Part shown: positions 7,601-49,320 of the stretch, one piece after another
Numbering within the stretch: position 1 is the stretch's first letter
Layout of the letters: every line of letters begins with the position of its first letter
Assembly: GCA_963920635.1 (NCBI GenBank)
Contig: OY987304.1
Span: forward strand, 33,418,365-33,482,364
Direction of reading: 5' to 3'
Length of the DNA: 64,000 nt
Origin: Pseudeuparius sepicola
Lineage: Eukaryota; Arthropoda; Insecta; Coleoptera; Anthribidae
Translations under genes and position numbers: made by a program
The notes under the pieces: generated by a model
Database searches by the model: none
What the model saw: only the letters and a program-made list of their open reading frames with translations
Told to the model about the DNA's origin: nothing

Positions 7601-10600
7601 CGGTTTATTATAACTAGGTATTGCCCTGATTCCAGTTTTGCATGGTATAACAATGCACTATTTCAAACTTTTGTATACATATTATAAACTTTAAGCAAAA
7701 AAATACTAATATCACAATAACAAATTACAATTCAGTTCAGTTATGCATAACTTTACTACATATTTTTATGTATCTAGAGGGTATATTTTTCCATGTACAT
7801 GGAGTCCCAGTTAAAACGTTACGAGCGATTGTTTCTACAAGACAGTTTTGTTGTTAAAAAATAATGTTTGCTAATATTATTTTGCAGACTTAGCTTGGGC
7901 TAAAAAAGTCACTTTACTATAGTCTAATGAAAAAATGCAACAAGATCGCCATCTTAATGAAAAAAAAAACAGTTAAGTGTTTGGCAATTACTTTTTTGTT
8001 TAAAATTCAATTGTTTCGTTCGCCATTCGATTGTTTGGAAAAACTACACAAATTTGGTGCTTCAACCATCAGTTTATCTGAAAAATCACTAAGAAAATAG
8101 CTCGTGACTTCTTGCGTGGAACAAAATACGTCAACTCAAGTCTGCGGTGCAGATTTTTTACCACCCTAATAAAAAATGCAACAAAATCGCCCTGCTGATT
8201 TTTTTTTTTCAAGAAATCGGTTAATTGGCGATAACTTTTTTGTTTTAAATTTAATAATTATTGTTTCGATCTTGATTTGATTCCTTGGAAAAAACTACCC
8301 AAGTTTAGTTTTTGAACCATCAATTTAAAATGACCGAGATATCAGCTTTTAACGTCTTAACTGGGACTCTCTCTAGTCGTTGCTCTAGTATTTCCAGTTT
8401 ATATGTTAATATACAAAAAATATATAATAATACATATATCTATTTAAATTTTTAATTTCACGAGTAACTTTTCTAAATTTTATGCAGATATGACGTCTTC
8501 CATTATAGAGAATGAAAATCATTCAGTTTCAACAACAGCTGAAGGTACTTATATAAATTTTCGTAAATAGCTTAAAACAATGTTTTCATTATTTTAGGCA
8601 GCAGCGCATTGAAAATAAAGTAAATTTTAATATTATCTATATTTAAAACTCAGTTATTTCTGATCTAACGTATATAATTTTTTTAACGCATTTTGCGCCT
8701 ATATCAAATAACAGGTGAAAGTTATTGGCGTTGCGTTGTACTGAACAGGGGATTTTCATCGCAGCGTTGTGTAAGTAACTCAAAAACACCAGTGCAGTTC
8801 AGCTCGCTATATGTGCTGTGCTGTACTGGAGAATGGCTTTACGCGGCCGGGGCGCTATGACTAGCTGCGCCCTTGGCCCGGCGGTGCGATGCCGCCGCTG
8901 ACGACTTCAACAGTACAGTCCTCCTTACGGCAGAATGCGTGCGACGTAAGGACGGAAATAAAACGTCATCACCTCGCGACGACCTTCATTTGACCGTGTT
9001 CCTAACTAGGATAAATGTTGCTAAAACAGAAATTGGGCACTGGAGTGCAAAAATTGCGCAAGTGTCTGTAAGATGGCGCTGGAGTTGGAGAGCGGCCATT
9101 GGTACAGAGCGAGAATAAAAAGTAATGTTTCGCCTTGCTAAAATAAGTTTCCGTTCCTTATAAGTTGTTTTGTTGCCCGGCAAGGTCGTTGCTCGGAACC
9201 AGGGGTCTAGGGGGAGGCAGGCGGACCGACCCCCTTTTTTATACAAATAACAGCACATCGCTTCCATCCTGGCGTATTTTGGGATTGAAACTGTGAATTG
9301 TTAAACACAAAATAATAATATGAATATTTACGCTCCTTTATTTTTCTATATTTTTTCATAGTTATTAAGAATATTGTTGAGTAAAATATTAAGTAAGAGG
9401 ACTACCTACCGGCTGTCAAATCTACTGTCATGACATAATAATTCTCCCTCAAAACCGCATGAATGATCACAATACTTACCCTAACTGACATTTAGAATTT
9501 ATGTCACTATAGTTTTATCTTTTATCATTCTATTAACTTTTCATTAAGTACTTAATATTGATAAACCGAAAGAAATTAAAATTCTGTTGTATTTGATCCA
9601 AAGTTGACGTAAAGTTGTGAATTTTGTTAGATACGTGAAATAGCTACTATTTGCTGATATCTTAATATATGTATTATTTTGGCATACATTTAGAGTAATG
9701 GAAAATGTAATGTAAATAAATTTATAGGTACTACCATAGAAGAATTTACGTAGTAGATTCTTCTATGGTACTACCTAAATGCTTGCCGGTACATCAACTT
9801 TGTGTCAAACAGAATTTTAAAGCGTTAATATAATTTTCTTTTGAAAAAGACATATTCTTATCGATATTTTTTAGTAATAAAAAAAGTTAATAAAATTATA
9901 GAATGATACTCGTATATTATGTTGTATAGCTAGTGATATAAAATAGTTTTTACGAAGTAATGACTTTTTAAAATTTTAAGAAATTTTATAAATAGGAAAT
10001 AGGCGCTTATGTAACATTAAAATAGAAACGACTTTTTCAAGTTAAACGTTTTGAAATTGTAACAAATAAGCCAATTTTTAGGGATTTTATTTTTTAAATA
10101 TAATTTTTGACAGATAGCGAAAGTCACGTGACCACGTTTGAGTCGGTTATTTTTCCTCGTTTTCAATCGAAAGGTAACCCCAAAGTTAACTGCATATGTG
10201 TTCTATTATTATCCGTTAATAAAAATATGTTTAAATTAATAAAAAGATACATTTTGCACCATCTTCATTTTTTCCAAAAAGGTTTTTTGGTTATAACTTC
10301 TGTTTGACGTTCGATTGTTTTTTTTCCAAACGACATTACATTGTTTGGAAAAAACTGCAACAAACTGGTTTTTAAATCATTAATTTGTCTCAAAAAATAC
10401 GGAATGGTTAAAGTGAATGTTCTTATCACCTTCAGGCGGCCACCCTGTACCTAATAAAAATATTATTAAACAAATAATAGTACTTTTTGAAATTGAGCCC
10501 ATGTGTTGACAGGTGGCCGTGATTACAGCCCAAAAGTAAAGTTACACACATTGTTTAATGTGCTTTTTGAACCTAACAAAAAAAAGTTTATCAAAATCGG

Positions 10601-13600
10601 TAAACAAATAAAGATATTTTACCAGGGTGGTAACTCCTTAACGGAGGTCACACTGTAGATGTTTAACATATAGGTGCAGAAGATGTTCTTTCGCATCAAT
10701 CTATCGTTTTCATTTTTTATTTTCGAGATATGTATTTATCTTAATTATTGCGTTACTTAAAATGTGTGTTTGAATGTAGTGTTAATGTAAACGAAGAAAC
10801 ACCTTATGTACACATAAAAGACCATGTTTCATTTCATTGAAAAAACTAAACATAATTTTGTAGAACTTTTAAGCCAGCAATACTATACCTACAGAAAACG
10901 TGCCGAATAACATTCTTTAACTAAAGATATGCCTTTAACAGTAAAAAACACAGTTGACATTCAAGTGACCTTGAAAACGTCGTCTGCCTACAAGTGAAAA
11001 CGTGCGTCTTACATTGCATCTCATATGCTTCAACTTTTATGTGATTTTTTGCGATTTTCGTTTTTGAGATATTTATAATAGCTGCATTTATTAAAATAGA
11101 ACACCCGGTATAGATAATTTTCGACATACCTATACATATAGAGACATAGACATATGAATCCTCCCCTAATGTCACTTTATATGCTAACGATTGTATTTTC
11201 CTCACGAAAAATACATAACGGCGACATACGTATAAATAATGCAAAGTCAACTAAAGCAGTTTTTAGTGCCGCCGTGTACCTTTCAAGCTAAAAATCAATG
11301 AACCATTGCTAAAAAGAGAGGGGTTAAAATCACAAATCGGAGTCTTTGAGCTACGGGGGTCTCCCGAATATACCTTTTGAAGTTTTATATTATTTTAATA
11401 TTAAAAATTCGCAATTCATAGTATATAATAATATGGAAGTAATACAAAAACATAAAAAAGTAATCAGAAAGCTTAGTTGATTAAATATTATCTCGCCAAA
11501 ACGTAAAATTGATCATATGAACATAATATATGTAATTATTAAACTGGACCTGTAACAACAGCGTCAACCGTTCATCGATCGTCTGTTTTTCGCGCCATCT
11601 GATAAACAATAGCTACACTTTTGGTATTCCCGCTGCATAATTTAAGGGTATTTTGCCTATGTTTTTTATTTACAACAAGACTGGATAATTACAATGTTTA
11701 TTACCGGGTTTTCGTTCCGAGCATATTCCGAAACCTCTGCCCATCTTAACGAAGGTAAAATTCCGGCTCAAGAGACAAAATAGACGAATTTATGCCGGCA
11801 TAAAGTTTGAAATTCAAAAAAAATTCTCGCCCATAGCTTTTAAACTAGTGTCATTAGTATCTATGGATATTTTAAAAATACCCGTGTTTTTTGTAATCCT
11901 TTGAAATTCGCTACTTTTTCCAGCTAGTTGGAAATAAAAATACATTGATACAGGCAACCAAACATACAATGGCGAGGCATTAGTCACAGTTCAGGGGCGT
12001 AGCTCAATTTTGTGTAACTTACTGACTTAATTTTCATATAATTGTATTCTTAACGGTGATGCCTTAGTCTATGGAGGAAGGCAAACCCTTATAACATTGG
12101 CAATTATTTCTCGTGCTTGAGAATGCAACGTTCTTCCCTGTTTACTCATTTTGCACACGTTAACTCCCGAACATACGAAACGCCACTGAGCTCTCTGAGC
12201 CGGCGGAAAAAACTTGCCAGCGGCCTAAAAAATGAGGTCTGTGTGGTAGCCCAAATACGCAGTTAACTTTACGTACTATAGAAACAGGCACAAAACGCGT
12301 TGGCTTACTGATTTTGTTAGCCGACTCCTTGGAAGAAGTGCTGTGTTGCAGTATTTCTAAGGCGATAGTAGACGCGACGATGTTGAAAAAATTATAATAG
12401 GTGTTTTATCACATATGATAAAACTTGTATTCGCCAATAAATAACGACTATACTCGTATAGGAAATCTCGCAACGCTACCTGCATTCTTTAGAAACGTTT
12501 TCTTTCGTGCTTTGGACTATACCTGGGGGGGGGGTACTGTCGTCTGCTCCTCAGAGCCCAACCTAGACGAGGATGCTAATAAGCAGTATCCATTGCCAGG
12601 CCAGACCACCGAGGATGGTCAGTAATCGAGTAGCTGCTAATAAGCTGTATCTACTGATGCCCAGCTTGTGGCTGTTTATCTTGTAGATCTTATAGATTGA
12701 TCCTCTTAATATATTGATTGTAGATTCTCCCTGGTATAAATTGATTAATGTTATCTCTATGTGTCATTTGGTTTGGTAGAAATGAATTTAAATAATTTTC
12801 GGTCATCGGTTCACAGATATAGCGACATGTTCGGAATTAAAAGTAAATCACTCTATATTTATAGGAAACTGATGATCCCATAAATCCAATGATAAGCTAA
12901 TTTCTAAGAAACTGGACGAGCTACCTTAGTCGCTAAGACGCAATTAGGATCATGCAAATAACTGTTTACAAAGAATAATTATTAGGGAATATAGTTAACT
13001 CGATGAATAGAGCGGGTGTCTGAGCTTAATTAAATAGGAAGCGAAAGTTGGATTAGAGATTTTATGCCCTGGCATTTTCTCTGGCAGAATTTGTTTAGTA
13101 GGACAACCGAGAACACCAAAAAACTGTTCTCATTTGCAGGTTAGTGCAAGTGGTAAGTACTGGCAATGTTCATTTTGCCACTTATCAAGAGCCCTTCCAT
13201 TTTCTACTGACTTTGACAGTTATGGGGAAAAAATATTAGACGGAGTTTTCTGTTTTGCCCATCTCGTTAGAATGATTTCCACTAATTGGGAAGTTATTAA
13301 TCTAAAATTTTGTAGTGGGCGACATAGATTAGATACCTTTCCAAAGTCCTCTTACACCTCCAGTACTCCAGACTTTAACAAAGGCATCCCACATGCCGTG
13401 AACTCTTGGTGGTAGTCCCAGAAGTCTTCTTCTGCCTTCCATTTGCAGCTGTACCTTTAATAAATCGGTCGGACTCGCGATATACTGAGCAAATGCGCCA
13501 GCACTTACACCACCTGTAAATATGAAAATAAATTGATTGTCAGAATCTTTTGTAAACTAGGAGGGTCACTTTTACTGTCTTATAGTGAATTTGTTTATTT

Positions 13601-16600
13601 CCTATAGGCACGTAGACATGCCTGGGTTTTCAATATATCAGGGGTTCGTAGATGTAGATTAGGGTTCCTTTATTAGGAGAGTAGTTGCAATCAATAATTA
13701 TTGTCATCATCAAATTTCAATTGGTTTTGCACAAAAGTAGTGACCCAGAGGTAAAGCCAAAAACCATGTGGGATGTTGCCTCATAGCACAGAATAGCCGG
13801 CTATTCTGTGCTCATAGGCTTGCAAGTAAATTTTTGAGAGAGTGATCAAAGCGGTGTGAAAATTTGACACTAAGAGACATTGTCATTTTAACTACAAAAT
13901 AATTCAATAAAATATATGCATTACATACTTGCATCCGTTGCAGCTCATCAAAGAGTGCCTATTGCAAGACTAGTATAATATGTGGTGCAGTGCGCATTTA
14001 GGCAAAAAAAACTCTATGAGAATGATTGTTTAAAATGATTCCAGTATCACAAAATGTTCCGCAAAGTCAGTATTATAGAAAATGACAATGAAGAGGCCCT
14101 ATAGAATAAATGGAGACTAAATCAATAGAGTAACATTTGCGGGAATGATATACATATACAGGGTGTTCCTTAATGACATGCTAATACTTATGGGGGTTAT
14201 TCTTGGGCCCATTTTAAGAAAAAAACTGCATATGAACGTATGTCGTAAACATCCTAACTTTTGAGATACAGGGCGTTAAAGTTCATTTTTTTAAATTGAA
14301 TTTTGGCTACATCTCCCGAAATAATCAAACTGCTGTACTGAAATTTGGCACTGCTATGTTTTGGGGGATGGAGAATAAGCTGAAAATGTCAATTTCACCG
14401 TATCTCACAGAGGGCGCCACTTGCGCTGTTTTTTGAGGTTATCTTTTTGGTTTTGCAGGTCTATCATTTTAGTGCATCTTTTCATTCTGCAATAAAAAGG
14501 TACTCTTGTTTCATAACGATTAAATCAACCGTTTGCGTTGAAATTACCAAAACATGCCCCAAAACACCTGTTGATTCCAATATTCGAAACATAAAATTTT
14601 CACCTACTGCTTTCAAATGTTACAGATCAACTGTACATTCAAAATGATGAAGAAAATGCCAAATGGGCATTGGTCAAAACACCATTGGTTTTCTTGAAAT
14701 AGAGTGTCCAAATTTTGTCAAATTCAATCCTTTCCATTTTGAAAGCGAATAATTTTTGGTACATTGTTCATAGGGATTTTTTTTCTCAGTTTAAATGGTA
14801 CAGTTGATCTGTAACACTTGAAGGTGATAGGTGAAAATTTTATGTTTCGAATATTGATGTCAACAGGTGTTTTGGAGAACTTTTTGGCAATTTCAAAGCA
14901 AACGGTTGATTTAATCGTTATGAAATAAGAGTACCTTTTTCTTGCAGAATGAAAAGATGCACTAAAATGATGGACCTGCAGGACCAAAAAGATAACCTCA
15001 AAAAAGTTACAAGTAAAAGCGTGAACAAAAAACAGCGCAAGTGGCGCCCTCTGTGAGATACGGTAAAATTGACATTTTCAGCTTATTCTCCATCCCCAAA
15101 AACATAGCAGTGTCAAATTTCAGTTCAGCAGCTTAATTATTTCGGGAGATGTAGCCAAAAATCAATTTAAAAAAATGACCTTTAACGCCCTGTATCTCAA
15201 AAGTTAGGACGTTTACGACATACGTTCATATGAAGTTTTTTCTTAAAATGGGCCCAAGAATAACCCCCTTAAGTATTAGCATGTCATTAAGGAACACCCT
15301 GTATAGGTACATATAACCACTATAAGTAACTACATACTTACATACTTAATAAGATATCTAATATTATTCTTAGACTAAAAAATTAACTCATATTCCTGGT
15401 GCACAGCCACCAGGAACTATTTTGGATGATATATAAAAAGCAAAACATTCCGTTACAGCGATTGGACAGATGTAAATTAAAACCAGAGTGAAGGCGTATA
15501 GAAGACTTTGGCTTTGGCATTGTTCGGATATATTTTCTAAATTAAAGAAGAGCTCTTATAAATTATTGAAATAATGGGTTGTGATTACCTAAGAGGTACA
15601 GTTACCGGCACAGGCAAATAAATCAAGGTTTAAAATAATAAGTGGTTGTCTTATTTGATATGTTTTAATCGATATTTTAGACTTTTGGTGAAGGCGCGGG
15701 TATTAATTTTAATATCTAAAACCACAGAAAATGTAGTAGGTATATTTTCTGTGCTAAAACTTTAATACCCACCATTCCCTTCCCACACCTCCAGCCATGT
15801 TCAGTTTTTTGACTATCGTGTTGCCAGCTGATGACTTTGACTATCTTTATAACCTGAAATATGCTCTTGATTTACGTTGCTACAGAAATAATCCAAACAT
15901 TTCTTCCCCAAAGGACAGAAGATATATATCTTATTTGTAAGTTACATAAATGTAATTTACGAATACCTGTAGGGTGAAGTAGTAAAGAGGGGAAAATGTA
16001 TCCAGTATATCTGCTCATACTCATACCCAGATACCTCCCCTTAAATGTAAGGATCGCATTACCGTAGCAAAACTGAAAGATTTGAAAGCTACATGCAAAA
16101 TTATATGCCACTTAAACATTAGTATTTTTATGAAGACCAGATACCTAAATAAAAAATTTCAAAATATACACACAGCCTAATCCAAATTGGTGCGTATGTT
16201 AAAATAGCTTCATTTAGTTTTTAGTTACTTATACTTGAATTTGTAATAATATTTTGAATTTATAAATGTTTTTTTTTGCAATAAAATACCTATGAGTTAT
16301 TCAAGTTTTGTTTTGTTTGTGGCATTTAGACTGTTCTAAGTAATATGGCATTAAACCCTTTTCAGTAATATGCATTACGACGTATAGACCCTTTTACGAT
16401 TTCCAGGGTGCCTCCTGGCTTTAAAATATAAAATGGTGGACAATGATATGGCATGGGTCTTTTGATATCAAGGAAAATTTCAGATTTTTAGCTGCAGTGG
16501 TATTCTAATTCAAGCGTATTGGCTTTTTTACCAGAGAACTTTCTTGACAATGCGCTTAATAGATACATACATAAAGCAGATTTCCAAACTGGGAAGTATG

Positions 16601-25600: not shown

Positions 25601-28600
25601 AAACAGGGGCAGTACCTAATTACAGATGTGTTAAACAACTGGAAATTTGTTTCAAAATTCTGCAAAATTAGTCGTTGTTAACAGAAGGAATTAATTGTTC
25701 TTGCGATGTATCCTATCATCATTTAATTGTAAAATGTTTGGCTACACTGGCAAACATATATCTCGATAATTATCGAAAGATTAATAATGACAGAATGAAT
25801 AATCGCGCAAAAGGCTGAAAAAAAACTACAAAAATAGCAAGTAAGTGATATTTCTTATTTTCATTCATTATATTATATTTATTTCTACGTACTTAATCAC
25901 TAAAGCAATTTGCGTGTAAGTGTTTTTTTTTTTATTTTCATTGAGCTTATTACGTTTGTTTCTACGTATTATCACTTCACTGCCGCTTCAGTATCATTAA
26001 TAAAAAGATAAATGTTCATAATGTTGCTTGTTGCACGAGTTTTTCATGCAGTTGATTTCATTACTATCCCACTTTTATATTTGTAATCTGCTGTAATCTG
26101 CTCTATAAAATGATAATGGAGTGATAGAGAAGCGACAATAAGTGCTGCAATTGTTGAATTTCATTGAGTTTATTATGTTTATTATTACGAACTTAATTGT
26201 TTATAATGATTTATTTTCTGTTGTGCGTAACATTTTTCGGTTTCTTATGGTATGTGTTAATAAATAATCCGGAAAATAAAAAATGGCTTTAAAACTCCTC
26301 AAAATACCGCAACGCATAGAATATCTTAGCTAGAATCGGCCTGAGTTTGTGACGTCATGAATCGAGTCTGCAGGCCTTCTATCCCGTGTGCCTCGCCCTA
26401 GCCCACAATATTTATTGTCAGTATTCTTCATTCCCATGACGTCTTCCAGAATGCACTTTCTCAACAAGAGGCCACCTTCTTACTTTACGGATCTCGAGTT
26501 ATTCCAAATTAACTGACCGTCAAAATTGAATTTGATAAACATTAAATAAAAAAATTCTGTTTTGCTCTCATAGGAAAAATTGAATTGTAAGAGGAAAATC
26601 GAAATTTAGATGGCCCTAATTGGTTCTGGCTTCCTAAAGAAAACAAACAAAAATAAAAAACATAATTGTATTTTTCCTTACCTTATTTCCATTTTTAGCT
26701 AATTCACCCTGTATTTGAAGTCGTGTCTTTATTAAGTCTAATGGGTAGGTTACTGGAAATAAAAGGAAAGCATCCCCTCAATCAAAATTAATAACAACAT
26801 CTTAAAAGTTCGTTTCCGAAAACATGAAATGTCAAGTAGAATATAATAATATACCACCAATCTTGTAATTTCGTTCCTATTTGTAACATAATAACACAGA
26901 TCAATACAGCTTCGACATAGATCTGTGATAATAACCATTTTATTAAATGTGTAATTGGGGCACATTCGTCCTCGCTCAAGTATAATTGAATCAACTACGA
27001 AATCGATAACTTCGCTTAATGCATTTTTGTATAAAATCATTGATTATAAGGTATTTTCAAATATAAAATGCCCTGTAAAGCAAGCTAGTATACCATACCG
27101 TTTCTTTAGACTTAAGTAATAGAGAGATGTTAAACTGAACCTACGGCTACAATAGGAGTCCCGGGTTCGAATCCCCGCAGGAGTGCTTTAACACGAAAAC
27201 GTTCCTATGGATTATTTACATCTTAAGACATATTTTTTTAGAATTTAAATTATTGATATCGAGACTATATTCTTTCCGGAAATGACACTTTTCTTACATA
27301 CAGTGTGTCTACTGTTAAATGTATATATTTTGTGAGATATTCTCAAAAACCTTTTTTTCTCGAAATGTCTTCAAATAACGCTTCTTTTGACTTTATTACT
27401 TTTGTCAAAATACAAATCCTGGAACGGCTGCGATTTTTGTATATCTACCCCCGACTTTTACGAAAACCATTTATCGATTTTTTTATTTAAAATCTGACAC
27501 CATGGCTTCTTTAATCAGAACACCCTAAAACCCCCATATACCAAATTTTAACAAAAAATATATAGGTAGTTCCATTTTGTAGGGTTTCAAAGTTGAGCAA
27601 AATAGGAAATTTTAATGCATCTGACGAGTCAAATGTGTCATGAAATCCACTCAAAATGGTTGAATGGTCAACAGGATCACTGAAAGTTTTATCCAGGGAA
27701 TTTTTCTCTGGGCCATCTCAAAATGCTGAATTTTTATGAAACTTTATTTTATTTTTATTTACAATATATTAATAAACACAAAATTCTTTTTTACAAAATG
27801 CCAACCACAAAAAAAAACAATTTAAATTATTGGACCTTCCTCAACAAACTCACTGTCTAAGATGATACATTTTGTGTGCCTTTCCTGTTGTTGCACACCA
27901 GCCACCTTAACTCGGATGGACTTACTCACTGGCAGGCTTCTGTATTTTTTAGATTTAGTTGCCTTATAATGTCTAGAGCGGTTTTGATATACTCGATTTT
28001 TGACGTCAAAAATTTCAGTATTTTGAGATGGCACAGGGTGGTCCTGTTGACTTCTCAACTGTTTATAGGGAATCCATGGCACACTTGACTTGCCGGATGC
28101 CTTTCAAATTCCTCTTTTACTCAACTATCGCACTCTGTAGAATGGAAGTCCCTCTACATATTTTATTCAAATTTGTTTTATGGGGGTTTTGTATGTCCTA
28201 ATTAACTCTGTGGTTTCAGATTTTAAATAAAAAAAATCGCATAAAAAGAACTTCAGTGCGGAATTTTTTTTAATCGGGAAAAAAGTGTTTTATTGGGGAG
28301 ACGTAATTGAGTCCCGCATATGTAGGTAAAATTCAGTCCCGGGTATTTTTATGGTCTACGTAAACTGAGTCCCAAAAAGTACCTGGTTGTCAGGTAATTA
28401 GTATATAGTACCTGCTGCCTATATTAAAATCAAATAACTCTTAGGCCTGATGTAAACAAGAACGTGTGCGTTGAGATTTTAGCCAGAGCCGCACTGAGGC
28501 ACGACCTTTATTTAATTTTACTTTTACAATTGATTACGTCAAAATATTTCGGAAAAAATTTATTGACTTAATTAAAATGATTCAAAACATCGATAAAATT

Positions 28601-31600
28601 ATTTGTGGCAGTGTCTAAATAGCCGAAGACAACAAGATAAAACCGCATAAATATGCTTTTGCGATCGAGTACATCCCTGTTGCCAGACGCGCTGACATTT
28701 TATGGCCTATATTGACCAATCGCCTTACTTCGCGGAACGTCATCGTGGTTTTATTTGCGCCAGGCGTAAGAGTTACTTGATTTTAGTATAGGCCAACCAC
28801 CATTCTGTACAAAAGTACCTATTTACCCAACAAACAACCAATAATTAAAATTGAATTACCTAATAATTTATTATACCCCCTTTGTTTGCTGCAGGCTATC
28901 AATTTTCTTATTTAGCGCTATTTAGTATTTGTTTCTGTTAACTCCATCTGTGAGTTTAATATGGAAGTTATAAAGAGTGATTCTAGTAATACACGGCTTT
29001 GAATAATTTCGTTTCCATAAATCATTAGCCAATATATGAACGTTGGACGTGTTCTAAAGGTAAAATGCAAATCTCTTCTAAAAGTGGGAAAATATCAGGA
29101 AGTGTTGGAAGGCCCTTCACCTCACTCTCATGAACGAGAGGAAGATAACAAGTTCCAACAGCAAAGGATAAGCAATTCTAAAGCGAAAAGACGCTGATGA
29201 TATTTGTGCAAGAACTGCTAAACTCATACACTTGGCTTTATAAGACGGTGATATCCATTCACTTGCACGTACGGATTTAATCAAAACACCCGCAACCAAA
29301 ATCCATTGAAGGGGCTTTCATTATATTGGCAAATATTGAAGTCAAAACGAACGCCAACGAAGATTTTGTGATCGGCAATGATTCTCAAAGCAAGATATTA
29401 GGATTTTCTACGAAAAAGAACTTAGAAGTGCTATGTCGTTCACATGACGTTTATGTTAAATATTTTTTTCAATTATTTACCTTTTATGCCTTACCTAAAT
29501 AACGACTCGTATGTGCCTCTTGCATTCTTTCTTCTCCCTGGAAAAACTGTAGAATGTTATAAGAAGTGCAGTGGCGTAACTACAGGGTGTTCAGAGTGTG
29601 CGGTGAACACGGGCCCAGAGCTGCTAGGGGCCCACCGCCACCAAGATTCATGCGGGGCGCAGAAATTTCGGTTTTTCCGATACGAGCCGATTGATGTGGT
29701 GCTGCGTATCCGACGAGTCAGAATCTCTAATCGGTTACATAGAGGGCCATTGAAATTTCGCAACAATGAAAATTCAAGGCCCCAATTATGACCGAAAATT
29801 TGCTTTTTTGTTGTTTGGGGGAAATAGCCGCTGTGACGTCATCAATATTTTCCCCCAGAAACATAAAAAAAATTTTCCTAAATATCGAAAGCTTATCATT
29901 CTCAAAAACTTTTATAGGAAAAAATTTTCTGTATCTTTTATTGTTCAAAATGTACAATTGATAGTCAGAAATTATTTAAGATAATGTTAGGTTGTCTTGT
30001 GCACCCTTAAATTTGTTCAACTGGAATATTAAAAAACAATTTTTGTAACAAACTATAATCTATAATAGCAAGTCAGTAACAATTGCAAGTCAGTAACAAG
30101 CACAATTCAAAAATTTAAAAAATACTCCAGTAGAACAAATTTAATGGTGCACAAGGCACCCTAACATACTCTTAAATAATTTCTGACTATCGCAATAATT
30201 GTTTTCATGGCCAGCTAGATTCCATTAATAGCCCCTGTTCAAAATTTTATTTTCAGTTTTCGTGTTCCCGCAGTAGGCCTGAGGCGTCGAGTTTGGATCA
30301 CCCTGTACAGAAACGTACGTAGTGATTCAACATTTTGACCTATAAAATGACGTTTTTCGACCTGTAGTGAGCAATGTGCATTACTTTTAACTCTTGGTCA
30401 ATACAAAGTTTAAGTTGGATTATTCTCTATGCACCTACAGGGTGTCCCATTTTCGCTACTTTCGACAGGTACCTCGGTTATTTTTAGTTGCGGTTTTTGG
30501 GACACTGGCCTACTTTTTCATAAAAGGTTCGTATATAGAAACACAAGGTGATTTTCAAAATTTGCCATTTCAGGCACCCCCCTATATCCGTTATACGCTA
30601 ACTTGTTGAAAAGGTAAAAATCGACCGTTATAGATTTTTTCACGTAGAATTCAGTGGCGTACAAGATTTTTTTCTAGGAGGTAAGAATTTCAAAATATAA
30701 ATATAACTTGCAAAAGTATCGAAAATGGGACATCTTGTACAATGTTTGTCATTGTTACAACACTTTCAAACATAAAAAAAACACAGGGGGCCCACCTGAA
30801 ATTTTGAACACGGGCCTACTCTTCCATAGTTACGCCACTGAAGAAGTGTTTTCAAAATGTTGTTAATAGCAGCATAAATATGGGTTTAACGTTTTCACCA
30901 ATAAATATTTTTATAGATTTTGAAAAGGTCATAGCTTGCAATCAATATTATTAAAAGCGAAAATTAAAGGATGGCGTTTTCACCTTGGCCCTTGGCCAAA
31001 GTTGATATCGCAAGATTCGGTCTCTTGGTTTAATATAATTTAAATTTTTAAATAATATAAATCAAAATCAGAAACATCGAAATTTTTAAAATCATTCTTT
31101 GGACTGCCATTTTTAAAGCCTGAAGACATTTCAGATGTTTTTACCGATTTGGGAATGGGACTCAATTTACGTTTTCCGGTTTTATTAGCCAAAAAAGGGA
31201 TCACCCGTCCATGACCCGATTGCGTGCGGCTTTGCTTAACTTTGACGATCGCTCTACCTAGGTCAAGCATGACGAGGCACGGCGCTTCCCGACAGAAACT
31301 CCAATCTGCTGCCTGTTGTGCAGCCTCCATGAAAAATAGATTGATTTCAAATCTACTAAATATTTATACTGAAAGATTGCGCTGCTATATGTAACAATTT
31401 CGCAATATGTACGAAAAGTTAAGTCAAAGATGAATATTATGATCTTTGGTTAAATGGACCTTTATTGGCCGGGATTTGAATATTTGGTCACTTTTGACGG
31501 GCGATGGCTCCGCATCTGACGTTTGATATTTACATCTCGTCAAGGCCTACTTATTGAAAAAATCGTACAACAATGGGCTACTTCAGTGCCGATTTCTTAG

Positions 31601-34600: not shown

Positions 34601-36371
34601 CATTTATGTTCCCGAGGCCAAAAAAGAGCGCACCTACGCATCGTGGAACATATTAAATTTTTCCTCCTATCGACAACACTTTACTACTTTGAATGATACT
34701 TTAAACTGCAAGTTTTTAAACACCATGCCTCTGCATAGTGCTCGTCTAAGTTATCAAGGCAGCCATAAAAAACCTTTTTAAAACAAGCTTTTATAAGCCG
34801 TGTACTAAAACGAATAAAATAAGTTTAGTTTTCGTTAATGATGAATTGCAACAAGTTTTTTTAAATTGTGACAAGATTTTGTAAATCAAAAAGCTTGTCG
34901 CGCGAATGGTAAAAAAATACATATCTTGGCAAGTAGGTACTTGCTTATCAACCAATCACTAACCAATAAATTTAATTGGTACCTACTTTTGGTTTACAAA
35001 AACTTATTGCAATTTGGCATTGTATTAGGTATCTTAACGAAAACCTGAACTTATTTAATTCGTTTTAGTACATGGCTTAAATAAAAGCTTGTTTTTAAAA
35101 AGGTTTTTTTTTTTACTTTATTTTGTGCTTTTTAGTACCTACCTATTTGATTGCCATGTCAAGAGGGTGGTAAAGAAAGTTAGTCCGCAAATACTAATTT
35201 ATTAGTAACTAGTGTGCAAAGCGCTGTTTAAGCGCTCCAGAATGACAATAAATATCATTCGGGTAATATCGCCTTCTTTACACCCTCAATGCATAGGTAT
35301 CTAAATGTCTATATTGTAAAATTCGTTACAGATTTTAAATGAGAGCAATTTAAATTTTCTCTCACTTACCCTACATATTATAGACAACGACAAATTTATT
35401 GGGAATATAAAATAGATCATGACCTGGATTAAATTTGTCAATCATCTTTTCCAGTATAAAAAATGAGCACTGAAAATTGTCTATTTTTCGAGATATTTTT
35501 CACGAAAAATGCGTCTACACTAATATAATACACCACCTGACTTTTCTGGATATTAGTTCAAGTACAGAAAACCAGCAATGTTTTTCTGTGATTCAAGTTA
35601 GGGAAACGTAGTTCAGTTATCGTTATGGAGATGTCAAGTAAACGCTTTGAGAGGGCATACTTAATTCATTTTGTTTTATTTAATTTTCATTTTCACTAGA
35701 GATCCTGGATAGGGAACCCTAATTTTCACTGGAGGAAAGGGCCATCAAACTATCCGTGGAAGGAAATGATACACTTTCTTTTAAAAAATTCTCGAGATTG
35801 ATATCGTAAATGTACTGTCCTCTGTGCGACTCTCGGCAATTAATTTCCCAATCCGAGACCCGGCCTGGAAATTTCTTTTAATCATAAAATATTTTGTATG
35901 CAATACGTCAAACTTTTTAAGTTGCCCCCCCCCCCCCCCCCATTAATATTTTCTGGGTGCGCTACTGACATAATATTATATTGTTCTTAATGTCTTTGTT
36001 ATTTTAGCCAGGAACAAAAATTCAATTTATGTCTTGAAGATATTTCTTCTCACCATATTATACCTTTAAAGCGAAGACTAGTTACTGGTGATATTTTTAG
36101 AACACCTTAATTCCAATAAGGGAACGAACTGGTCGATTTCTTGTGGTTTGGTATAGAATAATAAATTACTTTACTTTGTTATATTCGGTTTCTAAGTAGG
36201 TATACTTAGTTTGTTGCGTTTACCAAAGATATTATATCTTTGCGTTTACTTACAGAATTCTGCGTTCCATGCTGCTACGACGGACACCAAGTATATGCAC
36301 CACAGCGAGTCCACATACTTAGGGTACTCCACTTTTTGGGGGGGCAGAGGGGGCATCTTTTGTTATGAGGC
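4404..36371 (-). CDS. Ucp4: UCP4-type mitochondrial carrier, five coding exons, 3' end off window
   Basis: Inner-membrane solute carrier of the SLC25 family, most like uncoupling protein 4. Exons at 36371-36254 (ATG at 36356), 26752-26682, 16775-16571, 13513-13337 and 4626-4404 join with matching phases (1, 0, 1, 1, 2) and GT-AG borders, giving about 260 residues. All three carrier repeats carry the P-x-D-x-x-K/R signature: YPLDLIK near residue 37, SPTDLLK near 140, TPADVIK near 241. UCP4 hallmarks are the PYRG motif after the first helix pair, LWQG, and [18 protein letters not shown]4 proteins are usually ~320-340 residues, so one or two final exons lie left of position 1. The known role of the family is mild uncoupling or substrate transport in mitochondria; substrate cannot be read from sequence. 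Introns are 1.2-10 kb and full of transposons. The alternative is a UCP4 paralogue (insects have 4A/4B/4C). Confidence 0.9.
4853..5378. repeat. ~525-bp inverted-repeat element
   Basis: Arms of ~70-100 bp around AATACAACTCAA (right) and TTGAGTTGTATT (left), each next to an AGAGAGCCACTGTAG-like block, face each other. Ends are not sharp, so no target duplication is claimed. Confidence 0.5.
5539..6425. mobile_element. 887-bp palindromic MITE, TA duplication (copy 2)
   Basis: Second copy of the family at 541-1436: same CAGTGTGGTCATTTAAG terminus, same palindromic architecture, TA target duplication. Small indels separate the two copies. Confidence 0.85.
7300..8850. repeat. inverted pair of ~45-bp GC-rich blocks in UCP4 intron
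   Basis: The block around 7309-7350 (GCGTAAAGCCATTGTCCAG...) recurs inverted at about 8800-8850 (CTGGAGAATGGCTTTACGC). They may be the remains of one TIR element interrupted by the repeat at 7802-8369, or two copies of one dispersed repeat. Confidence 0.4.
7802..8369. repeat. element with inverted ends and an internal tandem duplication
   Basis: Ends GAGTCCCAGTTAA and TTAACTGGGACTC form an inverted pair. Inside, two direct ~170-bp copies (about 7925-8095 and 8168-8340, period ~243) share ATGCAACAARATCGCC, TAACTTTTTTGTTT and a TTGTTTGGAAAAA-like block. A diverged third copy lies near 10230-10400. Confidence 0.55.
8370..13336. other. UCP4 intron 5 remainder, mostly unrecognised
   Basis: No exon, RNA gene or complete element recognised apart from the micro-palindrome at 9735-9767 and the repeats noted. 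Short ORFs here have no recognisable protein features. Confidence 0.4.
9728..9774. mobile_element. micro-palindrome insertion, 33 bp, direct repeats GTACTAC
   Basis: Insert 9735-9767 has perfect 11-bp arms CATAGAAGAAT / ATTCTTCTATG around an 11-nt loop. The 7-bp direct repeats GTACTAC at 9728-9734 and 9768-9774 look like a target-site duplication; 8 bp is possible because the end base is ambiguous. Confidence 0.65.
13337..13513 (-). CDS. Ucp4: UCP4 coding exon 5 (second carrier repeat)
   Basis: Acceptor TTTACAG ends at 13514 and donor GTATCT begins at 13336. The 177-nt exon encodes [19 protein letters not shown] followed by [10 protein letters not shown], a UCP4 core block with the second carrier signature SPTDLLK, and ends in GLWKG. 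It is split by one nucleotide on each side (Cys from exon 4, Gly into exon 6). Confidence 0.92.
13780..13817. mobile_element. micro-palindrome insertion, 24 bp, direct repeats CTCATAG
   Basis: Insert 13787-13810 is a perfect 24-bp palindrome starting CACAGAATAGCC. It is flanked by identical CTCATAG at 13780-13786 and 13811-13817. There is no loop: the two arms meet at CCGG. Confidence 0.7.
14159..15301. mobile_element. 1.14-kb palindromic MITE, CAGGGTGTTCCTTAATGAC family
   Basis: Both ends read CAGGGTGTTCCTTAATGACA inward with TA flanks. The two ~550-bp arms are inverted copies, including the shared block CTCACAGAGGGCGCCACTTG. No coding capacity. A fragment of the same arm lies at about 43590-43775. 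Confidence 0.85.
15716..15760. mobile_element. micro-palindrome insertion, 31 bp, direct repeats CTAAAAC
   Basis: Insert 15723-15753 begins CACAGAAAAT and ends ATTTTCTGTG (perfect 10-bp arms, 11-nt loop). It is flanked by identical CTAAAAC at 15716-15722 and 15754-15760. The loop contains GTAGTAG, which is also present in the loop of the 9735 insert. Confidence 0.7.
16571..16775 (-). CDS. Ucp4: UCP4 coding exon 4 (PYRGM to FPVWKSAL)
   Basis: Acceptor TTCTAG precedes 16775; donor GTATGT begins at 16570. It encodes [19 protein letters not shown], then [13 protein letters not shown] and YSGTRIITY, the matrix loop and second helix region of UCP4, ending [11 protein letters not shown]4 normally has TPA before the RH motif; here the residues are HAA, a lineage-specific change. 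Open reading beyond the donor is intron read-through without carrier similarity. Confidence 0.93.
16776..18480. repeat. intron 3 sequence with a diverged ~120-bp tandem duplication
   Basis: About 17880-18000 and 18000-18120 are diverged direct copies (TATTAAGRAAACTTGTTC ... TAGACCTACTTTG). The rest of the interval shows no recognisable gene or element end. Confidence 0.4.
18481..18890 (+). repeat. dispersed hAT-like repeat fragment, copy 1
   Basis: Shares long stretches with 46290-46640: AATCTGAAGATATTGG, TTTCGCCTRCGGCRCATTTT, TCTATATACGTCACTGAAG, TAAATAATTCCTTG and GCTTGAGCCG, in the same order and orientation, and ends near a C-rich run as the other copy does. Non-coding. Confidence 0.6.
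19193..20424. mobile_element. 1.23-kb palindromic MITE, CAGGGTGATTCAGTTCC family
   Basis: Termini CAGGGTGATTCAGTTCCGGT and its inverse (ending CACCTTG) are flanked by TA. The long arms mirror each other, so the same peptide-like ORF appears at 19261 (+) and 20287 (-). Those mirrored ORFs are by-products of the palindrome, not genes. Confidence 0.85.
21073..21079 (+). promoter_or_regulatory. TATA box of the hAT element, with heat-shock-element-like half sites upstream
   Basis: TATATAA at 21073 is preceded at 21030-21056 by GAA/TTC repeats, one pair in perfect nGAAnnTTCn spacing (21045-21054). It is followed by an initiator-like CAGTATT near 21111 and an A-rich leader. The TATA call is good; heat-shock control is speculative. 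Confidence 0.45.
21269..21611 (+). pseudogene. hAT (DUF4371-type) transposase remnant, N- and C-terminal ends fused by deletion
   Basis: An N-terminal piece ([19 protein letters not shown]...) is followed in another frame by the hAT C-terminal dimerisation region: [18 protein letters not shown] then [18 protein letters not shown] and SENRLNG. The diagnostic ERSFS..R/K motif is intact; the RNase-H-like DDE core is absent and the frame shifts at about 21430. Transposition would need enzyme from elsewhere. Confidence 0.8.
21872..22553. other. GC-richer stretch right of the hAT, unrecognised
   Basis: Contains GC-rich blocks (21900-22110, 22140-22230). Joining it to 20700-20761 restores the pre-insertion sequence around CGATGGGC. 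It may be an older retroelement fragment, but no protein similarity could be recognised. Confidence 0.3.
22558..22894. mobile_element. 337-bp palindromic MITE with TTAA (or TTA) duplication
   Basis: TIR GAGGGGGTTGMCGACAGCG at each end, flanked by TTAA at 22554 and 22895. The arms (~140 bp) are strongly inverted around a ~50-bp centre. TTAA fits piggyBac and TTA fits PIF/Harbinger; the terminus does not settle which. Confidence 0.75.
24025..24070 (+). repeat. dispersed motif AGCCAAGTGCGAGTCG...CGAAGGGTTCC
   Basis: Reads AGCCAAGTGCGAGTCGAACT, then CGCACACGAAGGGTTCCATA. It contains the hairpin GCGAGT/ACTCGC. From memory, nearly the same string is widespread in lepidopteran genomes as part of a mobile repeat. 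It lies ~100 bp from a tRNA-Met-like block. Confidence 0.5.
24153..24228 (-). pseudogene. tRNA-Met-like sequence (anticodon CAT), probably pseudogene or SINE head
   Basis: On the minus strand the D-arm TAGCGCAGTGGAAGCG (A box), an intact anticodon arm CTGGGCTCATAACCCAG with CAT, and the B box GTTCGAAAC are all present and spaced as in elongator tRNA-Met. The acceptor halves do not pair and the T-stem has mismatches, so a functional tRNA is unlikely. Confidence 0.6.
24490..24790. other. GC-rich block with overlapping ORFs on both strands, unidentified
   Basis: Sharply GC-richer than its surroundings and open in four frames, two on each strand (24414-24785 +, 24452-24850 +, 24362-24748 -, 24487-24756 -). 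The predicted peptides are Arg/Pro/Gly rich and resemble no family I know. Open frames may simply reflect the lack of A/T-rich stops. Possibly the 5' end of a retroelement. Confidence 0.3.
25241..26494. mobile_element. ~1.25-kb TIR element with second internal inverted pair
   Basis: Outer ends AGAYCCGTAAAGTAAGAAGG (left) and inverse (right, ending TTACGGATCT) plus an inner pair GAGGCACACGGGATAGAAGG at ~25350 with its inverse at ~26373. The target duplication is not clear. No transposase recognised inside. Confidence 0.6.
26682..26752 (-). CDS. Ucp4: UCP4 coding exon 3 (first carrier signature)
   Basis: A short 71-nt exon, acceptor TTTCCAG and donor GTAAGG, encoding [19 protein letters not shown] and four more residues. 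This is the first P-x-D-x-x-K carrier signature. Its first two bases complete a Leu codon begun in exon 2, and it ends in phase 0 before PYRGM of exon 4. Family members often have LTKTR where this protein has LIKTR. Confidence 0.92.
27164..27174 (+). promoter_or_regulatory. isolated Pol III B-box-like motif
   Basis: GGTTCGAATCC matches the tRNA B box exactly and follows a short T-stem-like CCCGG, but no A box or acceptor stem is visible upstream. Could be a tRNA fragment or chance. Confidence 0.3.
27301..28245. mobile_element. copy of the CAGGGTGTCTACTTTTAA palindromic family, right end lost
   Basis: TA-flanked left end CAGTGTGTCTACTGTTAA, followed by the arm shared with 41838 and 61240 (GTGAGATATTCTCAAAAACC and a terminal ATTTAAAATCTGACACCA-like block). 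The right arm (about 28040-28245) mirrors it but stops before the terminus. Confidence 0.7.
28246..29560. other. UCP4 intron 2 sequence, nothing recognised
   Basis: No gene, element end or RNA recognised. It contains a few repeated GAGTCCC blocks at 28310-28375. Confidence 0.35.
29956..30200. repeat. palindromic MITE nested in the hAT
   Basis: Inverted arms ATAGTCAGAAATTATTTAAG / CTTAAATAATTTCTGACTAT and GTGCACC / GGTGCAC, about 100 bp per arm with a ~40-bp centre. Confidence 0.65.
30435..30738. repeat. CAGGGTGTCCCATTTTCG palindromic fragment nested in the hAT
   Basis: Left end CAGGGTGTCCCATTTTCGC and right end CGAAAATGGGACATCTTGTA face each other, as in the TA-duplication palindrome families elsewhere in the window. 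Confidence 0.55.
31040..31330 (-). other. 96-codon ORF of unknown nature in UCP4 intron
   Basis: Opens [19 protein letters not shown] and becomes Lys/Ser rich ([20 protein letters not shown]). It is more balanced in composition than the AT-driven ORFs nearby, but I recognise no domain, and no flanking splice sites or promoter stand out. It may be a transposon fragment. Confidence 0.2.
32090..32290 (+). pseudogene. mariner-like (DDxD) transposase C-terminal remnant
   Basis: In one frame DLNPLDFYF, a stop where family members have Trp, then [10 protein letters not shown]; in another [15 protein letters not shown]. This is the region around the third catalytic Asp of insect mariner-type transposases. 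Stops and frameshifts show long decay. Confidence 0.6.
32514..34760. other. AT-rich UCP4 intron 2, nothing recognised
   Basis: No exon or element end recognised. Short TACC/GGTA-rich motifs (such as GTACCTACCTAT near 34268) recur here and through the rest of the window. Confidence 0.35.
34764..35112. repeat. ~350-bp palindromic MITE
   Basis: Inverted arms AAAAAACCTTTTTAAAACAA / TTGTTTTTAAAAAGGTTTTT, continuing through CGTTTTAGTAC and TCTTAACGAAAAC-like blocks (~75 bp per arm). Target duplication not resolved because the ends are A/T runs. Confidence 0.6.
36217..36249. mobile_element. micro-palindrome insertion, 19 bp, direct repeats CGTTTAC, at UCP4 exon 2 splice donor
   Basis: Insert 36224-36242 has arms CAAAGATA/TATCTTTG and a 3-nt centre. 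It is flanked by identical CGTTTAC at 36217-36223 and 36243-36249. On the UCP4 strand the proximal repeat is intron positions +5 to +11, so the +5 G of the donor GTAAGT is part of the duplicated target. Confidence 0.65.
36254..36371 (-). CDS. Ucp4: UCP4 exon 2 with start codon (36356) and first helix
   Basis: Acceptor TATTTTAG ends at 36372 and donor GTAAGT begins at 36253. The ATG at 36356-36354 sits in a good context (AAAAG before it). It opens [19 protein letters not shown], followed by the first transmembrane helix [15 protein letters not shown]. This matches the usual UCP4 pattern of a Pro-rich N-terminus followed by YxxSxxAAxxAE just before the first carrier signature. Fifteen bases of 5' UTR are included. 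The ATG is the first in frame: the acceptor lies just upstream, and joining the open frame of the upstream exon would run into a stop. Confidence 0.85.
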
Positions 36372-39129: not shown

Positions 39130-41837
39130 TATCGTTGGTTCAAACCCTCCTCATCGGGAAAAAAATAACAAATTTCTGTAGATGTAACTATACGACCTCA
39201 CACAACTGGTAAGTAAAGCGTGTTTATCCAAAAGTTAAATATGATGGTGCCCATTGAAATAAATAAATTGAAGGAAAAAGGTTGTCGCTTATTCAGCGTT
39301 GTTATTGAAAATAACTGAATTGTTGCTGGCGACGTGATCTAATTATTGGTAATAGGGGCATTTTCATTTGGAAAAAAGAGTAGGTACCTAAATAAGCACC
39401 TTGACGTAAAATTAAACACATTTTAGCCTCTCTGTCTCGGGCAAAAATCGAAGCTGTAGATCCATTGGTACCTATCAGATGGTAGATGACCAATAATAAT
39501 TATTACGGGAAAAAATCCTATAAGCACCATTAATTATTCCTTTGAAGAAATGTTGTGAAATGAAAAATACCTTCCTACATAACATCGTCATATAATTGCC
39601 TTTTTTTTAATTTAATGAATCCAGAATTTTTAACTTATGGTTGAAAATAATCTTTTCTAAAATGTCCAGAATAAACTAGATACCTACATTTTGGTTTTGT
39701 CTTAGAATAACAATGCTTGGTTGTTATTCTAAGGGTTTTGTGGTTTCTCTGTACAAAACTAGAAATGACTTCATATTTAGACCTTTTTTACCAGGAAAAT
39801 TTACTGAACGACGAACTTCTTTGACAGTAGTTGGAGAAGGTATATTTAACATAGCCTTAACTTTATCGGAGTCAAGCATCCACAACGTATCCAAGATATT
39901 TCATTTCACTCCTATAAAATTGTCCCTTGTCTCAACTGATCTGAATTTAGGCGATCTTATAGTGACTGGGCCAGGACAACTATTTCGTCCAAGTAAACGA
40001 ACACGTGAGGTTCAAGATCAGCCCCTAAAATATTACCTGTTTACCTCTGCCAGGTCGAGGATGAATTGCTAAGGACAAAAGGCATTCGGTAAAATTAAAA
40101 CAACCTTCTGCGCGGGCGTGAGAACTCAGCGACAAGGACGTGGAAAAATGCGCTCTTAAGATCTAAACTGGATAAGAATTTGGCATCACATGCTTTCTGT
40201 GCATAGCATTTAGCGGTATCAATCTGACTCAAAACAAAGATGTGGTGGATACTTTGTATTTAATCCTTGCCCAGCACAAACTCACCAAGTTTCATATTTA
40301 ATATTCAATTTAGGAAGAAGATAAAAACACCATTCATTCTAACTCCAACAATGAAACTGGTCTTATTCGACGAAGGTTTGCCGATTTTATAGGACGGTAG
40401 GTACTTTCTATTGTGATAGTTTTCCTTGCCAATCATATTTCGATGGAATTTAATGTAAGTAAGGAAAAAGAGGCATATAATTTTTCATGGTAATTGGCCG
40501 ATATTATCGAGCCAAAGGAAAATAAAAACAAACAAAATGAACACAATTTCTGGCTACGTGCTTTATTTTTCAAAAATGGTTGTGACATGGTGAGTGTATC
40601 AATTCTAAGCTAGATCATTCGTACTGCTCCTCTCTGGCCCCAGTCTAGATATATCTTAACAATAGGTACAGGTATTCCAAAAATATGAATTGTATAATCT
40701 AGTCTTCTACTTGGAAGGTGTGAAACAATTCTGGGCTCTACGAAACTCTAGATTCTGGGAGATAGATTTTCTATAGCAGACGGCAGACACTTCGTACCAC
40801 TTTGTACTAAAGAGGCTGCATAAACATAGTTTTACAAACCTTGGATTGGTATCGACTGGTATCTGTCGAACGCTTTAGTTGCGGTAATGCAAAAGTTAAT
40901 AATTTAAGATTTTGGACATTTTATTTTCAAGGCACCCTAAAATATTAGTTTGTAAAGCAAGAGTGGATGTTGTCCATATATCGCGAGAGGAGAACGTAGA
41001 CTTCACGGCAATATGGACATTCCACTCGAGATGTACAGTATATTTTTTCTACACATAATTGATATTTGATCATACCTATACCTATGCGTGGAAGATCGTT
41101 TGCTAAATTACTCTAATCTGTTAGGATAAAGTTAATTCAAGGGTTGTTTGATTTGCAAATACGTCAACACACGCCGTAAAAAGTTTAACTGTCATTGATG
41201 GATTTCCATTTCATACTCTACATAGGATGATGGATAAGAAATTATATCCATTCAGTTAATTCAATTCAGTTGTCTATTTACCCATTCTGTAGATTGTAAA
41301 GATAACTGAAGATATGCAGGGTGTGCCAAAAGTCAACGTCATCCCTTGGAGGGCTGATTGGCCAACTCATGACTGATCACAATATCAAAATAGGACCTTG
41401 GTAAAAAATCGTAGGTAATTAGTTTGCGAAATATTGTCACTTTATGAATTTCGTGCAAATCGACACCTTACCAGAGTTCCACAGTTACATAATTCCATGT
41501 TCTAATAATCCAATAATCCTGAAGAGCCCTATTATATCGATCGCAGCTAAATTAAAATAAAACCAATAGTGCTATATTTAAGTACCTTTTGGGGAAAAAA
41601 CATTTTTTGTGCCAGTCGACAAATGGTTCTAGGTGGAAATAAATGCGGGCAAGCTGCAATACAGTTTTTTATCTTTGTTTGGATGTGTTGAACACAATAC
41701 TAAATTTGCACGGTCTATCGATCCCGGATTTGGCCGCCATATTGGAAAATTCCATATAAAAATTTTCTTTTTATGAACTTTTTAAAATAACTCGGTCTTA
41801 GTGCACCGTACAGAAAATTTTCAAATAACCGAAAATA
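39130..41837. other. intergenic, mostly unrecognised
   Basis: Holds one micro-palindrome (39701), an ~80-bp imperfect inverted repeat at 40970-41030 (arms AGTGGATGTTGTCCATAT / ATATGGACATTCCACT) and a lone CAGGGTGTGCCAAAAGTC element end near 41318. The 119-codon ORF at 39713 has no recognisable features. Confidence 0.35.
39693..39741. mobile_element. micro-palindrome insertion, 33 bp, direct repeats GGTTTTGT
   Basis: Insert 39701-39733 has perfect 13-bp arms CTTAGAATAACAA / TTGTTATTCTAAG around TGCTTGG. It is flanked by identical 8-bp GGTTTTGT at 39693-39700 and 39734-39741. Confidence 0.7.
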
Positions 41838-48550: not shown

Positions 48551-48608
48551 ATTTTGACCAGCGCCGGTTTTAGGGGGGTGCTAGGGCGCTAATAGCACCC
48601 GGCGGTTA

Positions 48609-48660
48609 ATTTTAGCACAGACCTATATAGCTGCGAAGCTATATAGGTCAGTGATTTTAG
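48609..48660. mobile_element. micro-palindrome insertion, 38 bp, direct repeats ATTTTAG
   Basis: Insert 48616-48653 begins CACAGACCTATATAGCT, has a GCGA loop, and ends AGCTATATAGGTCAGTG (one arm mismatch). It is flanked by identical ATTTTAG at 48609-48615 and 48654-48660. It lies inside a hAT-like GGGGGGTGCTAGGGCGC block. Confidence 0.7.
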
Positions 48661-48956: not shown

Positions 48957-49320
48957 AGGGCCGTATATAAGGGGGGGTTAGGGGTTCAAACCCCCCCCCC
49001 CCCTCCCCCATGATGGCATATATAAAATTTATTAACACGCCCGGCGCCCGCCAAAATGGAAAAATAAATAATCGTGCTGGTCGATTGTACTGCTTGGACA
49101 ATTGTAACATAAAACATGCTATGAAGGTCAAGCGTTTGCGTTTGGCAATATATATATTTGAGGATAATGCTCAAAAAGTAAAGGTATTGTCAAGTAGCTA
49201 ACTACCGATTCCACGAGACCTGGCTTTTCCCATACGCCCATACATAAGCCCAGGGCTGTATATGGTTTGGGCACAGAAAAACGGCAAGCTGCCGTTTTTC
49301 TGTGCGGTTTGAGGGTTCAG
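48957..49320 (+). repeat. two hAT-like left ends with poly-G/poly-C tracts
   Basis: CAGGGCCGTATATAAGGGGG at ~48957 and the similar CAGGGCTGTATATGGTTTG at ~49254 both lead into AGGGTTCAA(A/G)CCCCC-type sequence. These are partial hAT-type termini, one probably duplicated or nested. No 8-bp duplications assigned. Confidence 0.45.
49264..49312. mobile_element. micro-palindrome insertion, 35 bp, direct repeats GGTTTGR
   Basis: Insert 49271-49305 begins GCACAGAAAAACGGC and ends with its exact complement CCGTTTTTCTGTGC, centre AAGCT. Flanks GGTTTGG (49264-49270) and GGTTTGA (49306-49312) match in 6 of 7. It sits inside the hAT-like end at ~49254, so it post-dates it. Confidence 0.65.

Follow-up and report, generated by a model that had tools for sequence, protein, structure and literature searches.

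Hairpin insertions in the window

The window, the 64-kb stretch of Pseudeuparius sepicola DNA that we analyzed, contains eleven short palindromes, each lying between two copies of a 7- or 8-bp direct repeat. Seven of these had been reported in the initial annotation, and all seven are present at its coordinates. It also gave each site a direct repeat of 7-8 bp; this holds exactly for six of the seven, while the repeat at 49271 has one mismatch (GGTTTGG/GGTTTGA) or, with the insert framed at CACAGA, a spare C. The hairpins, and the other features that we noted in the window, are as follows.

Hairpins, putative scars (window coordinates; span with duplications in brackets; strand '.')
2510-2538 (2502..2546): 29 bp; CACGATA..TATCGTG; 8-bp duplication GGCCGATG; scan 1
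9735-9767 (9728..9774): 33 bp; CATAGAAGAATTTAC..; 7-bp duplication GTACTAC; scans 1 and 2
13787-13810 (13780..13817): 24 bp; CACAGAATAGCC / GGCTATTCTGTG; duplication CTCATAG; scan 1
15723-15753 (15716..15760): 31 bp; duplication CTAAAAC; scan 1
26895-26927 (26888..26934): new, 33 bp; CACAGATC..GATCTGTG; duplication ATAATAA; scan 2
31425-31448 (31418..31455): new, 24 bp; CAAAGAT..ATCTTTG; duplication GTTAAGT/GTTAAAT; scan 2
35563-35590 (35556..35597): new, decayed, 28 bp; TACAGAAAA..TTTTTCTGTG; duplication GTTCAAG/ATTCAAG; scan 2
36224-36242 (36217..36249): 19 bp; CAAAGATAT..; duplication CGTTTAC; scan 2
39701-39733 (39693..39741): 33 bp; CTTAGAATAACAA..; 8-bp duplication GGTTTTGT; scan 1
48616-48653 (48609..48660): 38 bp; duplication ATTTTAG; scan 1
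49271-49305 (49264..49312): 35 bp (33 from CACAGA); duplication GGTTTGG/GGTTTGA; scan 2

Other features of the window
About 4,400-4,520, 13,330-13,520 and 16,620-16,760, minus: mitochondrial carrier exon-like matches; if one gene, it encloses three of the scars
14148-15312 and 19187-20430: long inverted repeats with arms near 600 bp (85% and 93% alike)
20762-21863, 29569-30840 and 51229-52181: hAT-like elements with GGCGTA-type ends and 8-bp duplications; the first and third match the hAT dimerisation domain
42313-42553: tandem array of 15/45-bp units
45405-46217: tandem array with 109-, 176- and 284-bp periods
49754-49764: CACAGATTAGG between two copies of CTAAAAT, a possible scar with one end trimmed
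53,611-54,952, minus: MULE/ZSWIM-type transposase remnant
56,490-57,544, plus: Tc1-type transposase remnant
About 63,420-63,552, plus: SH2-domain exon-like match (GRB2, SHP2)

We identified the hairpins with two scans that made no use of a terminal motif. Scan 1 looked for palindromes between maximal direct repeats and was compared with 40 Markov-1 shuffles of the window. It returned 8 matches with arms of at least 7 bp (shuffled mean 1.0) and 6 with arms of at least 8 bp (shuffled mean 0.3), recovering five of the seven reported sites and adding 2510, the least typical member, whose arms are only 7 bp; its remaining matches, at 60118 and 60179, are chance-like in appearance. Scan 2 fixed the repeat length and allowed shorter arms or one repeat mismatch (10 shuffles), and several GC-tandem or AT-rich low-complexity rows were removed from it by eye. 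Here we find 10 matches for an exact 7-mer (shuffled mean 2.2), 14 for a 7-mer with one mismatch (mean 2.9) and 2 for an 8-mer with one mismatch (mean 1.1). The two reported sites that scan 1 missed appear here, along with three new ones, 26895 (CACAGATC), 31425 (CAAAGAT) and 35563 (T/CACAGAAAA); all three new sites have CANAGA-type ends though they were found without using the ends. The two scans combined thus yield all seven reported sites and four new ones. Searching directly for CACAGA within one mismatch at both ends and exact 7-bp repeats gives six sites in the window, all of at most 38 bp, and no such pair from 39 to 15,000 bp; in ten shuffles, pairs of up to 45 bp were absent and longer ones numbered 0-3 per shuffle. 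A chance origin, which the initial annotation had called very unlikely, is ruled out by the shuffles of the window scans, of this end search and of a 200-kb scan described below.

The ends of the eleven members, counted at both sides, agree on C at position 1 (21/22), A at 2 (20/22), C at 3 (14/22), A at 4 (19/22), G at 5 (20/22) and A at 6 (20/22), with little in common beyond position 10. CANAGA and its variants therefore describe the ends better than the loose "YAGAA terminus" first suggested, and the hairpin at 48616 ends in TCAGTG rather than TCTGTG; exact CACAGA is present at both ends of 4 of the eleven. A single MITE family is ruled out, as the inner arms differ among the window hairpins. 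Copying of the arms from elsewhere in the window was also rejected: their longest outside matches are 9-15 nt, like those of 110 random segments. A search of the window for a paralogous empty site found none, and Rfam and tRNA scans were empty.

Related elements and genome-wide abundance

We propose, with a probability of about 0.9, that each hairpin is the end-joined excision footprint of a P-superfamily DNA transposon. The hairpins are, most probably, scars left when cut-and-paste elements of this superfamily departed. In the 769-Mb assembly (16 contigs, including the window), a first look for the P-element transposase domain PF12017 (Tnp_P_element) gave 849 candidates, of which 150 were scored; all those listed passed the cut-off, and several have long open frames. 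The same domain was found in 0 of 14 control genomes. At 8 of 20 fetched loci, terminal repeats and exact 8-bp target site duplications surround the transposase match (positions compared by hand), with ends CACAGACTAAACAGACTTGC (four), CAGAGAAATGGAGGAGG (two), CTTAGACAAGG and CTCAGACCAAT, also written CACAGACTAAACAG, CTTAGACAAGG, CAGAGAAATGGAGG and CTCAGACCAAT. These eight elements, with P-type transposase inside and 8-bp duplications outside, represent the end types CACAGA, CTTAGA, CAGAGA and CTCAGA, and therefore the P elements of this genome carry the same end type as the scars. Loci L009 and L011 have the CTTAGACAAGG repeat, with no exact duplication found, and clean ends were not found for the other 10 of the 20; the partner of the terminal repeat at L027 was not found within 7 kb. 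The longer elements with matching ends that the initial annotation had predicted thus exist, both as these P elements and as intact 7-bp relatives of the 48616 hairpin. Among the 20 loci we found no element with a 7-bp duplication and PF12017, which counts against the P reading. The window itself has no P transposase at positions 1-60,001 (Pfam, six frames, 15-kb pieces, E<=0.01); for 60,001-64,000, two frames were searched against PDB.

Individual window scars can in places be tied to sequences elsewhere. The 13787 hairpin has a near-identical partner, CACAGAATAGCCAGGCTATTCTGTG, at C1:112412, and 49271 has a relative, CACAGAAAAACAGCAAGC.., at C1:5740542. One tail of 15723 shares 14 nt with the end of a 668-bp element (L018:8736-9403) that has an exact 7-bp duplication. 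The 39701 scar has only its first 6 nt in common with the P element at L010 (CTTAGA ends, 8-bp duplication). For most of the window scars no full element was identified, which counts against the P reading.

The initial annotation had offered, among other readings, a hAT transposon, with the hairpins as end-to-end deletion derivatives or excision footprints. In favor of hAT, YARNG-like ends are a feature of these elements, and so are 8-bp duplications with NTNNNNAN targets, as described for hobo in the accounts consulted; three hAT-like elements with 8-bp duplications lie in the window. However, most of the duplications are 7 bp, the ends of the window's hAT-like elements (CACGGGCGTAGCC, CAAGGGCGTATTC, CAGTGGCGTAACT) differ in sequence, and it is P transposase that lies inside the elements whose ends match. 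On hAT excision, hairpins form on the flanking DNA, so that the footprint insert comes from the flanks and the duplication is altered at its inner ends. Here, the insert consists of terminal-repeat sequence wherever the full element is known. We consider a hAT origin extremely improbable: the ends, the duplication lengths, the related full elements and the limits on tail length (below) fit the long staggered cuts of the P superfamily. The earlier suggestion of an excision footprint survives, while the superfamily and mechanism named with it do not. Its further proposal of a new process that inserts copied hairpins is likewise not borne out, the anatomy being that of a P-element excision footprint.

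Most duplications are 7 bp long (eight 7-bp and three 8-bp in the window), and they are exact at 8 of the 11 window sites, in agreement with the earlier claim that these are insertions with target duplications. The accounts of Drosophila available to us give 8-bp duplications for P and 7-bp duplications for 1360 (GTTNAAC) and Galileo (GTANTAC); PMC10983969, PMC2775673, PMC3276498, PMC3573991 and PMC4168063 were also drawn on in part. In the window, 6 of 8 7-bp duplications fit NTNNNAN (background 0.10, p=2.7e-5), as do 11 of 20 exact 7-bp duplications genome-wide, among the matches listed. Only 2 of 7 fit for 7-bp scar-type hairpins in the 200-kb scan (judged by eye), which counts against the P reading. 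Palindromy of the 7-bp window targets is mild (3.4 of 8 pairs versus 2.2, p=0.009) and is carried largely by the 9735 site, whose GTACTAC fits the Galileo consensus. At the three 8-bp window sites no target palindrome was seen, and this counts against the P reading. Overall, the 7-bp families show the palindromic target, with T as its second base and A as its sixth, and intact elements of these families carry GTAGGGG and ATATCAG. The 7-bp duplication, the palindromic target and the T and A at these positions are all shared with 1360/Hoppel and Galileo, from which the families here differ in that our searches tied no transposase to them. We met no footprints of 1360 or Galileo in the portions of the literature on them that we consulted. 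Their duplication length, their target and end motifs and the anatomy of their footprints would place the 7-bp families in the P superfamily, presumably with a P-type transposase.

The check that the initial annotation asked for, a genome-wide excess of such hairpins, came out positive. The pattern CACAGA-N(4-30)-TCTGTG, which spans at most 42 bp and says nothing on longer hairpins, matches 8,950 sites versus 661 for a reversed control pattern. Of the 50 matches listed, we checked the first 40, all from the start of contig C1, and 24 have exact repeats of 7 bp (20) or 8 bp (4); in another 5, the two copies of a 7-bp repeat differ at one base, and the other 11 show no repeat. By chance, as measured in the window, an exact 7-mer at that spacing is expected at 0.014-0.035% of positions. 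The 11 sites without a duplication count against the P reading; the control rate of about 7% would account for three of them. Two further sites from an earlier pattern comprise one with an exact 7-bp duplication and one without. The genome thus appears to hold thousands of scars, and extrapolation from the 4 of 11 window scars with exact CACAGA at both ends gives a possible, unproved total of about 20,000.

We also scanned 200 kb of DNA around the fetched P-transposase loci with no terminal motif and with inserts of up to 90 bp allowed. This returned 83 rows. TA-rich microsatellites make up 61 of the 83, and of the other 22 rows, 12 have scar-type ends (judged by eye; shuffled mean 0.4 rows). 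Several loci merit description in their own right. At C1:2624122-2624195 (L055 and L056), two different hairpins adjoin, with CTATAGG between them and at both sides, as if the site had been struck twice. In L016, five or six scar-like hairpins lie within 2.2 kb (7849-9989) beside an intact P element. There is also a second end type, CGTTGA, with 7-bp duplications: a 172-bp element in L023 (5805-5976) and scar-like hairpins in L023 (5209-5237) and L011 (9603-9628).

Tail lengths and cut positions

The proposed course of events is as follows. An element with terminal inverted repeats would insert, with duplication of 7 or 8 bp of target. During its excision, one strand would be cut flush at the element end and its partner at a point deep within the terminal repeat, so that each flank would keep the duplication and a single-stranded 3' tail of terminal repeat. 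Because both tails are identical, pairing between them would be confined to self-complementary words (TATA, AGCT, CCGG, GCTA/TAGC). Once the tails had been trimmed, paired and filled in, a near-perfect palindrome would lie between intact duplications. The longest tails in a family of scars may therefore mark the position of the inner cut, and we measured tails in two families.

In the first, an 8-bp family, the pattern CAGAGAAATGGAG has 1,088 matches versus 2 for the control. One scar of this family, L019:765-791, joins two stretches of terminal repeat, one of 10 nt and one of exactly 17 nt, and the repeat is that of a 477-bp element that lies 0.7 kb away with an 8-bp duplication. Among the first 100 matches listed, we recognized 13 scar rows by eye, chosen without regard to duplications and including two copies with the same flank, and their left tails are 13-17 nt. 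In a further five truncated rows, whose right end is not in view, the tail extends to 15-18 nt. The GGAGTAGG variant accounts for most rows, and the transposase-bearing elements L012 and L013 belong to a close variant, GGAGGAGG. In this one family, and among these first matches listed, the footprint tails are thus at most 17 nt, which is the published P-element cut.

The second is the 7-bp family of the 48616 scar, which itself can be read as a 17-nt tail followed by one of 21 nt that runs past a single substitution. The arm of this scar, CACAGACCTATATAGC, has 2,456 matches versus zero for the control, and the terminal repeat of the family is CACAGACCTATATAGCTTCGCTACAGAC. Both of the two intact elements checked have exact 7-bp duplications: L072, examined over its whole sequence, is 4,577 bp long with duplication GTAGGGG and no ORF of more than 172 aa, and the second, of which the ends alone were examined, spans 9.7 kb with duplication ATATCAG. 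Among the 100 CACAGACCTATATAGC matches listed, 94 leave the repeat at 16-24 nt, with peaks at 17-18 nt (38 rows) and 23 nt (26 rows); 3 leave at 24, none at 25-32, and 6 are intact ends at 33-35. These rows are tails rather than independent events, since a scar can contribute both of its tails to the list. Local copies make up a few of the rows, some show no second end, and at least two (C1:9612173 and C1:14729117) sit 244 bp inside full elements. In the three 24-nt rows, the next base, C, matches the repeat by one base, so the limit is 23 nt, or 24 at most. The 17-18 nt peak coincides with the self-complementary word AGCT and need not be a cut site, because two identical tails can pair there. 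The 17-nt value of the P element is therefore exceeded, which suggests, for this one family and the first matches listed, a cleavage offset different from the published one; this difference counts against the P reading.

The tails also bear on two other explanations. Internal-deletion derivatives from aborted gap repair, reduced to bare ends, would draw on a common event, as incomplete synthesis followed by end joining is frequent after P excision (PMC2895639). Gap repair is expected to leave a continuum of lengths, but scar-type hairpins in the window and in the 200-kb scan reach only 38 bp with inserts of up to 90 bp allowed, the window's gap in CACAGA-ended pairs begins directly above that length, and tail lengths break off abruptly at 17 or 23-24 nt. 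We therefore regard this explanation as very unlikely. Slightly less improbable, though still a distant alternative, is that the hairpins are micro-MITEs of 20-40 bp, mobile in their own right and each moved whole by a transposase for which CACAGA-type ends suffice. Identical hairpins at different loci with different duplications, L035/L068 (TTAATAG, CTTCTAG) and L038/L070 (CTAGAGG/CTAGGGG, TCTGAAAC), are what such units would leave and count against the P reading. However, centers vary among copies within one family while the arms match the terminal repeat of a long element, the tails end at a fixed position, and published P footprints repeat the same junction without mobility (14 of 44 in the junctions of PMC2895639). 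Like MITEs, the hairpins have terminal inverted repeats and target duplications and are non-coding; unlike MITEs, they are far shorter, with a variable center and a fixed arm limit, and they act as products rather than as units.

Probable excision scars as a record of transposition

The excision-footprint reading finds its closest parallel in D. melanogaster. The P-excision junctions given by Chan et al. 2010 (Table 1, PMC2895639) run from one duplication through terminal repeat (at most 17 nt), a center of microhomology or a short insert, and the complement of the terminal repeat to the second duplication. The parts of the literature consulted place the cut made by P transposase in the 5' strand 17 bp into the terminal repeat (PMC7776569) and state that the donor ends keep 17-nt 3' tails (PMC2895639). 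The window hairpins resemble those junctions in their intact duplications, in the microhomology or filler at their center and in length: of the tabulated junctions that keep both duplications, 34 of 44 are 19-38 bp with a median of 30, and the window's eleven have a median of 31. The terminal-repeat limit of 17 nt per side is shared as well, except that one 7-bp family here has a 23-nt limit. The Drosophila footprints derive from a single element and were produced in the laboratory, whereas the scars here are natural, come from several families and apparently number in the thousands. The kind of lesion is thus already known, and it is its abundance that looks new; the 23-nt offset, against the published 17-nt cut, may be new as well. 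In the literature that our search reached, we found no genome-wide footprint or scar study of P-type scars.

Small palindromic insertions of this sort are easily missed or taken for a new class of element. Recognized as scars, they tally past transposon excisions and supply natural double-strand-break junctions in large numbers. We are inclined to think, with moderate confidence, that the 7-bp families were moved by a P-type transposase that cuts some 23 nt into the terminal repeat rather than 17, and that such natural scars (thousands per genome, with 94 rows versus 6 intact ends among the CACAGACCTATATAGC matches listed) form a germline archive of cleavage geometry and end-joining rules, family by family. 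With scars, sequence by itself would be enough to tell the cut offset of each transposase family, and within this same genome they suggest 23 nt for a 7-bp family versus 17 nt for an 8-bp family.
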